This document shows, in pieces, positions 39,263-51,413 of a stretch of DNA of 64,000 bases. The first letter of the stretch is position 1, and the number at the start of each line of letters is the position of its first letter. Origin of the DNA: Pseudoflavitalea sp. G-6-1-2 (GTDB lineage: Bacteria > Bacteroidota > Bacteroidia > Chitinophagales > Chitinophagaceae); assembly GCF_012927185.1 (NCBI RefSeq), contig NZ_JABBGB010000001.1, positions 1,550,001 to 1,614,000 of the forward strand. The letters run 5' to 3'. The notes beneath the pieces were generated by a model. That model saw only the letters and a program-made list of their open reading frames with translations, did not search any database and was not told where the DNA came from. The position numbers and the translations under genes are program-made.

Positions 39263-39691
39263 TTAAGGATCGAGTTTGTCGGCCATATTGGCCATTGTGC
39301 GGGTCAGTTTATCACATTCTTCCTTGCCCAGAATTGCGTAATACTTAGTGGTGAATTCTGTGGCGCACGCGATCAGTTTAGGAAAAAGTTCTTTTGCTTT
39401 TGGAGTAGGATATACGTTGGTGATCTTGCCTTCATTGGTTCTTACCACCAGTTTTCTGCTCTCCAGTTTTTCGATCAAACGCGTAATGGTAGAGGGTGTC
39501 AGCCGAAGCTGCCCTGCGAGCGAACCGGGTTGCATGCCGGGTTCTTCCACTACCAGCATCAGCAGATAAGCATGGCTGGGTGAAAGATCTACCTTCTTCC
39601 AAACATCGATCGATAGTTTCTCTACTACGCGGGCGAGTGCGTTGGAAGCGAAGTACATGCATTGTTTGTATTTGCTCTCTGAGGCTTTCAT
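39263..39691 (-). CDS. MarR-family transcriptional regulator
   Basis: 142 residues with the winged helix-turn-helix of MarR: LSPSHAYLLMLVVEEPGMQP, SLAGQLRLTPSTITRLIEKL as the recognition region, then the wing SRKLVVRTNEGKITNVYPT. Dimerisation helices lie at both ends. MarR repressors bind palindromes and leave DNA on binding phenolics or on oxidation; a single cysteine pair (C11 and C111 approximately) is present. Two matching palindromes flank its gene, one over its own promoter-like box and one before the NmrA-like gene, so it probably represses both itself and the reductase. Confidence 0.92.
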   Translation of the reverse strand: MKASESKYKQCMYFASNALARVVEKLSIDVWKKVDLSPSHAYLLMLVVEEPGMQPGSLAGQLRLTPSTITRLIEKLESRKLVVRTNEGKITNVYPTPKAKELFPKLIACATEFTTKYYAILGKEECDKLTRTMANMADKLDP

Positions 39692-39906: not shown

Positions 39907-40059
39907 GGCCGGTGAGGGGATTGCGATTCGAGGTAGTGAAATCTGCCGGGCAGCGTTATGTCTCCGATGAGCTGTTGCATGGAGGATGGGGCAATAGAAT
40001 AGATCCGGGGTGCCGCGCAACAGATTTCAAGACCTCTCATCGCATCCCCATCCCCGGCC
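39907..40059 (+). repeat. Hairpin element copy R1
   Basis: 153 nt. Outer arms at 39907-39927 and 40039-40059 pair over 19 bp with one mismatch and two single-base bulges (GGCCGG/CCGGCC, GGGGAT/ATCCCC, GCGAT/ATCGC). A short GAGGT/ACCTC stem follows, then an inner 8-bp stem GAAATCTG (39938-39945) with CAGATTTC (40021-40028). The 75-nt core begins CCGGGCAGCG, holds TGTCTCCGATGAGCTG and ends CGCGCAA. It shares this core with R2, R3 and R4, but not the outer arm sequence. Confidence 0.8.
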
Positions 40060-40119
40060 CTGTCCCGCTGAATATGTAACAGTTCTGCTGTTTAATTCCT
40101 GCTTTATCAACCATTCGCA

Positions 40120-40264
40120 GCAAAGAGATATTCAGACAATGGCCTTAAAATCTGTTGCACGAAAGCTGGATATTCTTCCAATGCTTCATCCTTCTTACCC
40201 AATGTTCATCGGAGACACATCTCTGTCCGGCAGATCTTTAGACAGTGTCTGAATATCCCTTTGC
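40120..40264 (-). repeat. Hairpin element copy R2
   Basis: 145 nt, core on the minus strand. Outer arms 40120-40138 and 40246-40264 form 19 pairs; the only non-Watson-Crick pair is G-U when read on the core strand (A-C on the other). The inner stem is AAGATCTG with CAGATTTT, again with a single G-U on the core strand. The 76-nt core begins CCGGACAGAG, holds TGTGTCTCCGATGAAC and ends CTTTCGTGCAA. It lies in sense 39 nt after the stop codon of the glutamine amidotransferase gene. Confidence 0.85.
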
Positions 40265-40303: not shown

Positions 40304-40993
40304 TCAAATCATTTCAAACGCATCGAGGAATTTCGCAAAGTATGCCTGCGTAGCGGCTGCATGTGTCTCCGTAAGATGCAGAATGGTAGCTTCAGATTGA
40401 ATGAACGGTGCGTCGGTGAGTTCTTCACGGCCATGTTGCAGCATCTGCTGTGCAAGCGGCGCATCCACTTCCATATGAAACTGCAGTGCAGCGAAATTGT
40501 TGCCAATCACATAACCCTGATTGGCGCAGGCAGCTGTTTCGAAGAGACGGATTGCATTGGAAGGCAGTTCAAATGTATCTCCATGCCAGTGAAAAACTGT
40601 AACTGAAGAGGGAAAACCCTGTGTAAGCGGATGTTCGGGATGCAATACCGAAACCGGCATCCAGCCGATCTCTTTTTCGGGGTTGCGGTACACGCGCGCA
40701 CCGAGCACATCGGCGATCAGCTGTGAACCGAGACAAATGCCCAGCACTTTCTTTCCTGCATCGATACATTCCCTGATGAATGTTTTTTCTGCAGCCAGCC
40801 AGCTGAATTCCGCTTCGTCGTGCACGCCCATCGGTCCGCCCATCACCACCAGCCAGTCGAGACTTTGCGGCGAAGGAAATACTGCTTCTTCATACAACTT
40901 CGTAAAACCGGTGCTATGCTGTTTGGATGCTGCCCAGTTCAGCAGGAAACCGGGGCTTTCAAAAGGAACATGCTGTATAAAATGTATGTGCAT
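40304..40993 (-). CDS. Class I glutamine amidotransferase-like protein
   Basis: 229 residues of the GATase1 fold. The nucleophilic cysteine is in KKVLGICLGSQLIAD, the histidine in AALQFHMEVD, and the WHGDTFELP segment is the usual substrate-loop motif. The oxyanion strand WLVVMGGPMGVHDE is clear. This resembles GMP synthase subunit-like stand-alone amidotransferases of the GuaA/YfeJ type, where the amido acceptor is unknown. The start at 40993 is 48 bases from the divergent ruvB start. Hairpin copy R2 sits in the 3' flank. Confidence 0.87.
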   Translation of the reverse strand: MHIHFIQHVPFESPGFLLNWAASKQHSTGFTKLYEEAVFPSPQSLDWLVVMGGPMGVHDEAEFSWLAAEKTFIRECIDAGKKVLGICLGSQLIADVLGARVYRNPEKEIGWMPVSVLHPEHPLTQGFPSSVTVFHWHGDTFELPSNAIRLFETAACANQGYVIGNNFAALQFHMEVDAPLAQQMLQHGREELTDAPFIQSEATILHLTETHAAATQAYFAKFLDAFEMI

Positions 40994-49769: not shown

Positions 49770-50984
49770 ATGTCCCAGCAACGACCGTTTATCAGCACCT
49801 CTTTCAGCTATGAAACATTAGAAGAAAAGCTTGATGTAAAACCCAAGGGGGCTAAGCTTCATATTGGTATTCCCAAAGAAACCGCTTTTCAGGAGAACAG
49901 AATTGCATTGACTCCCGATGCCGTGGGAGTGCTGATCAGCAATGGGCATGATGTGGTGATCGAACACAATGCCGGTGAGGCATCGCATTTCCGCGATCGC
50001 GATTACAGCGAAGCCGGTGCACGCATCGTGTACGACAAAGCAGAAGTATTCAAGGCGCCCATTCTCGTAAAGAGTGCGCCGATTGTTGAAGAAGATATTC
50101 CCTACCTGCAGTTCAATCAGGTGATCATATCCCCCATACATCTTTCTGCCATGAAAGCAGAGCTGCTGCAGAAGATGATGGATAAACGCATTACCGCCAT
50201 TTCGTTCGAGAACCTGAAAGACGATAGTGATAGCCTGCCCATCGTTCGCAGCATGAGCGAGATTGCAGGCAGTGCCGTGATGCTGATTGCAGGGCAATAC
50301 CTCAGCTCCGCCAATCATGGGAAAGGAGTGTTGCTGGGTGGCATTTCGGGTATTCCTCCTACCAAAGTAATTATTCTGGGAGCCGGCATCGTAGGCGAGT
50401 TTGCGGCACGTGCTGCACTTGCACTCGGCGCTTCCGTGAAAGTGTTCGACAGCAGTGTGTATCGTTTGAAGAGACTGCAGAACAATATCGGTCAGCGTAT
50501 GTGGACCTCAGTAATTGAGCCACGCATTCTGGCCAAGCAACTCAAGACCTGCGAAGTAGCTGTTGGAGCGCTGGCATCCACTTCGGGCCGCACCCCTGTG
50601 GTGGTTACCGAAGAAATGGTGAGCAATATGCGCCCCGGCAGTGTGATCATCGATGTGAGTATCGACAGAGGCGGTTGTTTTGAAACATCAGAAATTACCA
50701 GTCATGAACAGCCGATATTTATGAAGTACGGCGTGATCCATTACTGTGTACCCAATATTCCTTCCGGATTTGCCCGCACGGCTTCGCAGGCCATCAGCAA
50801 TGTACTGATGCCGCTGTTGCTCGAAGCCGGAGAAGAAGGCGGCTTCGAAAATCTTGTATGGCACAAAGTGCATCTGCGAAGCGGCATCTACATCTTCAAG
50901 GGCGCACTCACAAATTTCCACCTGAGCCAGCGGTTCGATCTCAAGTATACAGATCTGAACCTGCTGATAGCAAGTCAGCGGTAA
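49770..50984 (+). CDS. ald: Alanine dehydrogenase
   Basis: 404 residues, of the AlaDH/transhydrogenase N-terminal family, which reversibly converts L-alanine to pyruvate and ammonia with NAD. The signature IGIPKETAFQENRIALTPDA opens the catalytic domain, the substrate lysine lies in the VKSAPIVEEDIPYL region, the Rossmann motif is VIILGAGIVGEFAARAAL, and GSVIIDVSIDRGGCFETSE and HYCVPNIPSGFARTAS are also typical. An N-terminal extension of about 30 residues (MSQQRPFISTSFSYETLEEK) is longer than in Bacillus. Hairpin copy R3 begins 33 nt after its stop. Confidence 0.9.
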   Translation: MSQQRPFISTSFSYETLEEKLDVKPKGAKLHIGIPKETAFQENRIALTPDAVGVLISNGHDVVIEHNAGEASHFRDRDYSEAGARIVYDKAEVFKAPILVKSAPIVEEDIPYLQFNQVIISPIHLSAMKAELLQKMMDKRITAISFENLKDDSDSLPIVRSMSEIAGSAVMLIAGQYLSSANHGKGVLLGGISGIPPTKVIILGAGIVGEFAARAALALGASVKVFDSSVYRLKRLQNNIGQRMWTSVIEPRILAKQLKTCEVAVGALASTSGRTPVVVTEEMVSNMRPGSVIIDVSIDRGGCFETSEITSHEQPIFMKYGVIHYCVPNIPSGFARTASQAISNVLMPLLLEAGEEGGFENLVWHKVHLRSGIYIFKGALTNFHLSQRFDLKYTDLNLLIASQR

Positions 50985-51017: not shown

Positions 51018-51167
51018 GGCGTGCAGGATCATGTGAATACGCCGCCAAATATGCCGGGCAGAGTTGTGTTTCCGATGGGCTGTAATCTCATGGGATTGAG
51101 CGCCGGCAATACTCTTCAGCTTTCGTGCAACATATTTGAAGGTCGTATTCACATGATCCTGCACGCC
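51018..51167 (+). repeat. Hairpin element copy R3
   Basis: 150 nt. Outer arms at 51018-51041 and 51144-51167 are a perfect 24-bp inverted repeat (begins GGCGTGCAGGATCATG). The inner stem is CAAATATG (51046-51053) with CATATTTG (51131-51138). The 77-nt core begins CCGGGCAGAGTTG, holds TTTCCGATGGGCTG and ends CTTTCGTGCAA. It lies in sense 33 nt after the alanine dehydrogenase stop. Confidence 0.88.
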
Positions 51168-51257: not shown

Positions 51258-51413
51258 TGGCTGCAACGGGACAGGCTAAACCGGCCTTCAAATATGTTGC
51301 GCAAAAGCAGGGCATTTTTACTGTTGCTTAATCCTTTTTCCCAAAAGTTCATCGGAGATACAACTCTGCCCGGCATATTTGACTGCCGTGTTTCGCCTGT
51401 CCCGTTGCAGCCA
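51258..51413 (-). repeat. Hairpin element copy R4
   Basis: 156 nt, core on the minus strand. Outer arms 51258-51276 and 51395-51413 form a perfect 19-bp inverted repeat (begins TGGCTGCAACGGGACAGG), with further pairing inside. The inner stem is CAAATATG with CATATTTG. The 77-nt core begins CCGGGCAGAGTTG, holds TATCTCCGATGAAC and ends CTTTTGCGCAA. It lies in sense 65 nt after the ABC ATPase stop. Confidence 0.88.

Follow-up and report, generated by a model that had tools for sequence, protein, structure and literature searches.

A dispersed palindromic repeat family in intergenic DNA of Pseudoflavitalea, with inward-facing pairs and abundant compensatory change in a long hairpin stem

ERIC, YPAL and bcr1 are palindromic, MITE-like intergenic repeats of about 100–170 bp, found in one lineage. 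The palindromic intergenic repeats RU-1, RU-2 and RU-3 are presented in PMC2759123 as MITE-like elements of this same kind. REP, REPIN and BIME sequences are described in PMC3116915 as dispersed extragenic palindromes in which inverted doublets are over-represented, alongside singlets. The four hairpins considered here, R1–R4, lie in a window of 64,000 nt (the whole stretch of Pseudoflavitalea sp. G-6-1-2 DNA that was analysed) and belong to one repeat family, of which a literature search recognised no published description. With ERIC, YPAL, RU and bcr1 the family shares its palindromic form, intergenic position and limitation to a lineage; unlike them it has variable arms round a conserved core, inward-facing pairs and lineage-linked core types. 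It resembles REPIN and BIME sequences, as characterized in PMC3116915, in that its copies are commonly inverted doublets in extragenic DNA, but the unit measures ~150–190 nt with a variable stem of ~38 bp, as against the 20–40 bp given for a REP unit in PMC3733652, and its arms, unlike those of REP and REPIN sequences, differ between copies. Nor is any copy of the family found within 1.5 kb of an IS200-like gene, in contrast to TnpA_REP (RAYT) systems, and no GTAG-type REP foot shows up in the list of 5- and 6-mers enriched in the flanks. Because a flanking transposase was not found and the unit size does not agree, the family is termed REPIN-like in arrangement and is not filed as a REPIN. 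On balance it is probably a palindromic, likely once-mobile intergenic DNA repeat in a REPIN-like arrangement, far larger than a REPIN.

As had been noticed in the original prediction, R1 (core on the + strand) and R2 (core on the – strand) are both present and inverted relative to each other, with inner stems exactly as quoted there, namely GAAATCTG/CAGATTTC in R1, AAGATCTG/CAGATTTT in R2 and CAAATATG/CATATTTG in both R3 and R4 (Table 1). A search of the 64-kb window for 30-nt arms complementary at 25 or more of 30 positions across a loop of 60–180 nt returned three arm pairs, one within R3, one within R4 and one linking R3 to R4, whereas five Markov-1 random windows contained none and the best arm pairs of five more reached 20–21. 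R1 and R2 fall below this 25/30 cut-off, though they score highly with the covariance model. The hairpins are far beyond chance, R3 and R4 by comparison with random windows and all four by the covariance model.

Table 1. Features of the R1/R2 and R3/R4 loci, in window positions; R1 and R2 were both among the 15 sequences from which the scoring covariance model was built.
Feature	Position	Strand	Remarks
R1 hairpin	39907–40059	+	Single element, core on +; covariance-model match 39914–40051, 114.9 bits
R1 5' arm	39907–39945	+	Inner part GAAATCTG at 39938–39945
R1 conserved core	39946–40020	+	CCGGGCAG...CTCCGATG...AGGATGGGGC...CGCAA
R1 3' arm	40021–40059	+	Includes CAGATTTC at 40021–40028
R1 3' tail	40066–40082	+	CGCTGAATATGTAACAG, a version of the family tail CGCTGAAGGTGCAAC
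R1–R2 spacer	40060–40119		No strand
R2 hairpin	40120–40264	–	Faces R1, core on –; covariance-model match 40123–40262, 128.9 bits
R3 element	51018–51167	+	Covariance model 122 bits
R4 element	51259–51412	–	Partner of R3; covariance model 124.3 bits
Alanine dehydrogenase gene	49770–50984	+	Pfam; R3 begins 33 nt past its stop codon
ABC-transporter ATPase gene		–	R4 lies ~66 nt from the end of the gene
Class-I glutamine amidotransferase gene	40304–40993	–	Ends 39 nt before R2
MarR-family regulator gene	39263–39691	–	Start lies 215 nt from R1

The anatomy of a single element was derived from 59 copies of the G-6-1-2 genome and 46 copies of other genomes, with stem positions numbered from the inside outward. 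Each unit comprises an arm of ~38 bp, a core of ~75 nt conserved in sequence, the second arm and, often, a conserved tail of ~30 nt; the stem sequence is copy-specific, yet the arms remain complementary. The inner stem (positions 2–8, mismatched in 0–16% of copies per position) ends in a two-by-two mismatch at positions 9 and 10, of which position 10 is G.A in 43/59 G-6-1-2 copies and 30/45 others; at position 9 mismatches, of varying bases, affect 86% and 63%, respectively. Outward of this internal loop, helix 2, which is short, gives way to a looser stretch near positions 15–16 and then to a strong stem reaching to about position 37 and including a conserved G-C run at positions 27–29 (position 28 is G-C in 52/59 and 44/46 copies). 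The core folds no better than its dinucleotide shuffles on either strand, mean z-values being 0.13 for the core strand and 0.42 for the complement in G-6-1-2, and –0.18 and 0.54 in the other genomes. By a simple motif rule the cores were assigned to types A and B: G-6-1-2 has 51 of 59 copies of type A, two of type B and six unassigned, genomes G001, G002 and G004 together have 40 of 45 of type B, four of type A and one unassigned, and the single copy of genome G167 is of type B. Downstream of the stem, the tail motif CGCTG occurs within 60 nt in 33/59 G-6-1-2 copies (3.4 expected) and the hexamer CGCTGA in 24/59 (0.8 expected). When checked as terminal inverted repeats of a DDE-type MITE, the outer ends were found to differ from copy to copy. 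Likeness between the closest copies at different loci stops near the stem base and tail (–15 to 174 and –7 to 197 relative to the model match), giving a copied unit of ~150–190 nt, and since it ends at the limits of the element, single elements rather than pairs appear to have been copied. Two further copies (L063 and L067) are 92% alike over 461 bp including the 3' flank, and represent a segmental duplication.

The 6.1-Mb G-6-1-2 genome carries at least 59 copies, counted by BLAST and then with a covariance model trained on 15 copies, which scored 150 of the 1135 candidates from the first look; another model, derived from 71 copies and applied to 150 of 747 candidates, again gave at least 59. 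Matches were obtained in 4 of 29 genomes, G-6-1-2 included, all four within the same genus, in which three of the five other members carry the family and, counting G-6-1-2 itself, two of six are without it. A wider sample at family level, searched with stricter filters, yielded matches in 5 of 294 genomes, the fifth being one copy in another genus. A pattern scan, which excludes records of G-6-1-2 or its very near relatives, matched 45 stretches of named genomes and two of viral contigs; when 24 of the 45 and both viral stretches were scored with the covariance model designated R2 (distinct from hairpin R2), only two weak matches of 16.2 and 12.1 bits appeared, the 21 stretches left out of this scoring all being from Pseudoalteromonas.

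A functional RNA helix is usually demonstrated by compensatory change. The foremost alternative to a DNA repeat is a structured RNA made from the core strand, whose stem pairing is selected and which would serve as a small RNA or, at the 3' end of an mRNA, in stability or RNase III processing; we regard this as unlikely, although the massive covariation of the stem speaks for it. In an alignment of 105 copies that includes related genomes (A6, fitted to the covariance model and so leaning towards the model pairing), covariation is 0.704 as against 0.206 after shuffling, and drops to 0.137 or less when partners are slid by 1–3 columns. In the same alignment 86.7% of cells pair versus 59.3% in shuffles, and double-change cells number 1003 versus 315, neither value being reached in 500 shuffles. 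Less telling are the pairs with two-sided change (31 versus 28.1 shuffled, reached in 11/500) and the further pair types (103 versus 104.3, reached in 362/500). The covariation is overwhelming, and the stem changes, far above those of shuffles, are compensatory as the original prediction had proposed from four copies. Outer arms of orthologous elements show 19 two-sided Watson-Crick replacements, seven two-sided changes with a Watson-Crick pair in just one of the two sequences, and one-sided changes between Watson-Crick and G.T (8), A.C (10) or other mismatches (11), all counted over 14 overlapping and hence non-independent comparisons. The further step of that prediction, selection on RNA rather than on DNA symmetry, does not follow, since template switching between the arms yields the same signature without RNA. 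As described in PMC8794818, template switching makes reverse-complement copies, repairs stems and gives multi-base compensatory changes; that work concerns RNA genes, whereas the present family is a dispersed repeat lacking G.U preference in its long stem.

That preference is the premise of a strand test, by which a core strand folding as RNA should show G.T far above A.C. The outcome differs between parts of the element. In the long stem (helix 1) G.T and A.C number 28 and 41 (11 versus 25 in G-6-1-2, 17 versus 16 in other genomes), and in helix 3, formed by the inner stem and three core pairs, 28 and 40 (24 versus 27, and 4 versus 13), so that neither has the G.T excess expected of RNA. Further counts are 10 versus 24 in G-6-1-2 and 5 versus 9 elsewhere for single mismatches enclosed by two pairs on both sides, 1 versus 12 and 2 versus 1 for stem positions 2–8, and 15 versus 31 and 8 versus 14 for positions 17–37 (without positions 20, 21, 30 and 31, 14 versus 18, and 7 versus 6). 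Taking positions 2–8 and 17–37 copy by copy, G.T exceeds A.C in seven G-6-1-2 copies and falls below it in 29, the corresponding numbers for other genomes being 7 and 10. By comparison, acceptor stems of 28 distinct G-6-1-2 tRNAs contain 15 G.T and no A.C, a lenient control in that ARAGORN selects for pairing. On the side of RNA stand helix 2, with 75 G.T versus one A.C (37 versus 1 in G-6-1-2, 38 versus 0 in others), and core helix 5, with 64 versus 3 (10 versus 1, and 54 versus 2); helix 4 (11 versus 2, and 26 versus 18) also leans to core-strand wobble. One helix 2 pair is CG in 62 copies, UG in 17 and UA in 10, and the next is UG in 53, CG in 37 and UA in 6, with C.A in at most one, and such a CG/UG/UA series is the usual path of an RNA helix. 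Arm positions pooled in an identity-only alignment likewise favour RNA, with 146 G.T versus 99 A.C (p 0.003), made up of 77 versus 76 in G-6-1-2 and 69 versus 23 in other genomes.

Folding energies point in two directions. For whole elements the core strand is predicted to be stabler than its complement in 45/46 copies of other genomes and 36/59 of G-6-1-2, which would suit a structured RNA, while the arms alone are predicted to favour the core strand in 35/46 and only 14/59, respectively, so that whole-element and arms-only predictions disagree. The core, no stabler than shuffles, also counts against RNA, as does Rfam, in which the window has no match at gathering score (three sub-threshold matches occur near the R1/R2 locus). 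Taken together, wobble counts and predicted energies indicate that the long stem behaves like DNA symmetry, whereas the signals close to the internal loop and within the core speak for folding of the core strand, be it RNA or single-stranded DNA. The original prediction had read G-U pairs fitting only the core strand as a sign of folded RNA. Its two named deviations in R2 are indeed G.T on the core strand, but by simple arm alignment R2 has further ones (T.G at stem position 12, C.T at 15, A.A at 9 and four within 35–41), R1 has A.C at 26 and 40 beside one G.T at 41, and R3 has C.A at 9. The G-U statement is therefore limited to two chosen positions of a single copy; the pair, the inner stems and those two positions stand, the fit to the core strand only does not, and of the interpretation compensatory change survives while G-U pairs as general proof of core-strand RNA do not.

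The arrangement among genes bears on the same question. All 38 close pairs have their cores facing inwards, 20 of them in G-6-1-2 and 18 in other genomes, the latter from loci selected in part for a pair visible in the match list; the 20 G-6-1-2 pairs account for 40 of its 59 copies. Its 39 loci all lie between ORFs (20 convergent, 15 tandem, 4 divergent), in an approximate context provided by a simple ORF caller for ORFs of at least 70 aa. A co-directional ORF upstream of 41/59 copies is what a 3'-end RNA element would predict, but single copies in tandem regions run along the upstream ORF in three cases and against it in four, so that sense orientation is no rule. A sense 3'-UTR element whose pairs merely reflect convergent genes was rejected on these tandem singles and on the 2/20 pairs that lie in divergent regions. 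Overall, the evidence for the family acting as RNA is weak.

Several 5' flanks in relatives carry, by eye, an intrinsic-terminator-like hairpin and T run right before the element. Spacers between paired elements of relatives (L169, L170, L172, L176, L178, L181 and L182) share a recurring short motif, approximately GGATGGGGAAAG and then CTTCGGGATGCG or AGTGCGTCAGCG; it occurs in both orientations and looks like a portion of the core together with the tail. In one G002 pair (L185, 1546–2805) the two elements are separated by ~980 bp that include a gene-like stretch. A more widely spaced pair (L045, positions 1805 and 4343, 2.5 kb apart) was considered as an autonomous element with a transposase and rejected, its intervening ORFs being ordinary-looking.

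Members of a G-6-1-2 pair share their inner stem (reached in 0/5000 permutations) and core (1/5000), but not their outer arms (1792/5000), and pairs of relatives show the same trend more weakly (218/5000, 17/5000 and 4279/5000, respectively). Because inner stem and core are shared while outer arms are not, this sequence pattern suggests that cores may be exchanged between copies, above all inside a pair. Between three relatives, orthologous outer arms are alike at 0.81 versus 0.48 for random pairs, and cores at 0.69 versus 0.57. Between G-6-1-2 and the relatives, the values for orthologous elements are 0.50 versus 0.43 for the outer arm and 0.48 versus 0.48 for the core, hardly above random, so that core exchange is there indistinguishable from plain divergence.

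Searches for a candidate enzyme concerned transposase and reverse transcriptase genes. Covariance model R1 (distinct from hairpin R1) detected no element at nine IS200-like (Y1_Tnp) loci in six genomes, with ~1.5-kb flanks, and every one of the six genus members has Y1 genes, the two without elements included. Among 78 ORFs neighbouring the 39 G-6-1-2 loci there is no transposase in the 25 Pfam families listed of 133. A retron or group II intron would call for a reverse transcriptase gene, but RVT_1 is absent from carriers G000 (G-6-1-2) and G001, and present in carriers G002 and G004 as well as in non-carrier G003. G-6-1-2 has two IS200-like (Y1) genes, at L086 (1468–1896) and L091 (1198–1794), the former situated between what we take to be DAHP-synthase-like and dehydroquinate-synthase-like ORFs. 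The L091 Y1_Tnp protein is borderline in Pfam, with NHLH, WQ and HIHENP motifs and a Y motif that reads H. These motifs resemble those of the Bacteroidetes TnpA_Y1 subclass 2.6; according to PMC6006769, genes of that subclass have atypical secondary structures on their flanks, and copies of these structures recur at other places in the genome. The likeness is incomplete: subclass 2.6 has Y where the L091 protein has H and its structures are called weaker in PMC6006769, whereas the hairpins here are strong; no family element lies within 1.5 kb of the L091 gene; and a gene like that of L091 also occurs in G003, a genome without elements. The lack of a transposase near the repeats and the Y1 genes of element-free genus members argue against the mobile-DNA reading, as do the conserved G.A at position 10 and the wobble of helices 2 and 5, which look like selection on a folded strand. 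A more specific version, which must be rated as rather improbable, envisages a mobile DNA element confined to the genus and composed of two ~150-nt hairpins that face each other. Its locus-specific arms would be kept complementary by copying of one from the other, its core would be an exchangeable cassette that spreads through ~60 sites by conversion, and the enzyme behind it would be neither a reverse transcriptase nor a Y1 transposase of REP type working from a position next to the repeats.

The loci were also compared with those of relatives. The R3/R4 pair lies between the alanine dehydrogenase and ABC ATPase genes in G000, G001, G002 and G004, and the corresponding regions of G003 and G005 hold no element, the G003 stretch lacking the dehydrogenase gene and being perhaps another locus. 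A counterpart of R1/R2 is absent from G001, G003, G004 and G005, and in G002 the contig breaks off before this can be judged. Against 612 bp here for the intergenic region that holds R1/R2, two relatives have ~100 bp and ~75 bp, respectively, and two more have ~1.3 kb free of elements. In G001 the ~1.27 kb at this position (L112, 334–1600) is element-free and looks partly coding. Flanking genes are common to G-6-1-2 loci at 10 of 27 loci of other genomes, or 7 of 24 once three loci fetched by gene are left out. Such shared positions, together with inward pairing without exception among the pairs seen and a core type that follows lineage, could also be expected of chromosomal protein-binding or architecture sites, that is, paired inverted DNA to which a nucleoid or repair protein binds in duplex or cruciform form, selected and immobile. 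We consider this quite improbable, as alike elements with unrelated flanks and the apparently lineage-specific R1/R2 argue for copying to new sites, and we know of no binding protein. Chance inverted repeats or decaying functionless remnants are the least credible reading and very improbable, for although all mismatch types are present in the arms, random windows contain no such hairpins, which refutes a chance origin, and the core, the steady stem of ~38 positions and the internal loop are conserved.

In the favoured reading of a palindromic intergenic DNA repeat, R1/R2 would be one of at least 20 inward-facing G-6-1-2 pairs of a dispersed non-coding element, non-autonomous and probably once mobile, of the REPIN/BIME/MITE kind, whose arrangement is seen directly and whose mobility we infer. 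Copies would settle in intergenic DNA, mostly between convergent genes, and pair with their cores face to face; movement is likely to be slow or old, as four species share the R3/R4 locus. The core may be recognised by a trans-acting factor and homogenised between copies, since core types are lineage-biased and pair members share cores but not outer arms. Arm complementarity may be kept mainly at the DNA level, by template-switch copying between arms, by selection for a single-stranded DNA hairpin, or by both, because the long stem has no wobble preference. The family is rich in compensatory change, yet its long stem lacks the G-U preference that would be expected. Having ~60 copies per genome, variable arms and some loci common to species, it is well suited to testing whether RNA selection or DNA copying upholds long hairpins, and it makes the search for a core-recognising factor a concrete one.
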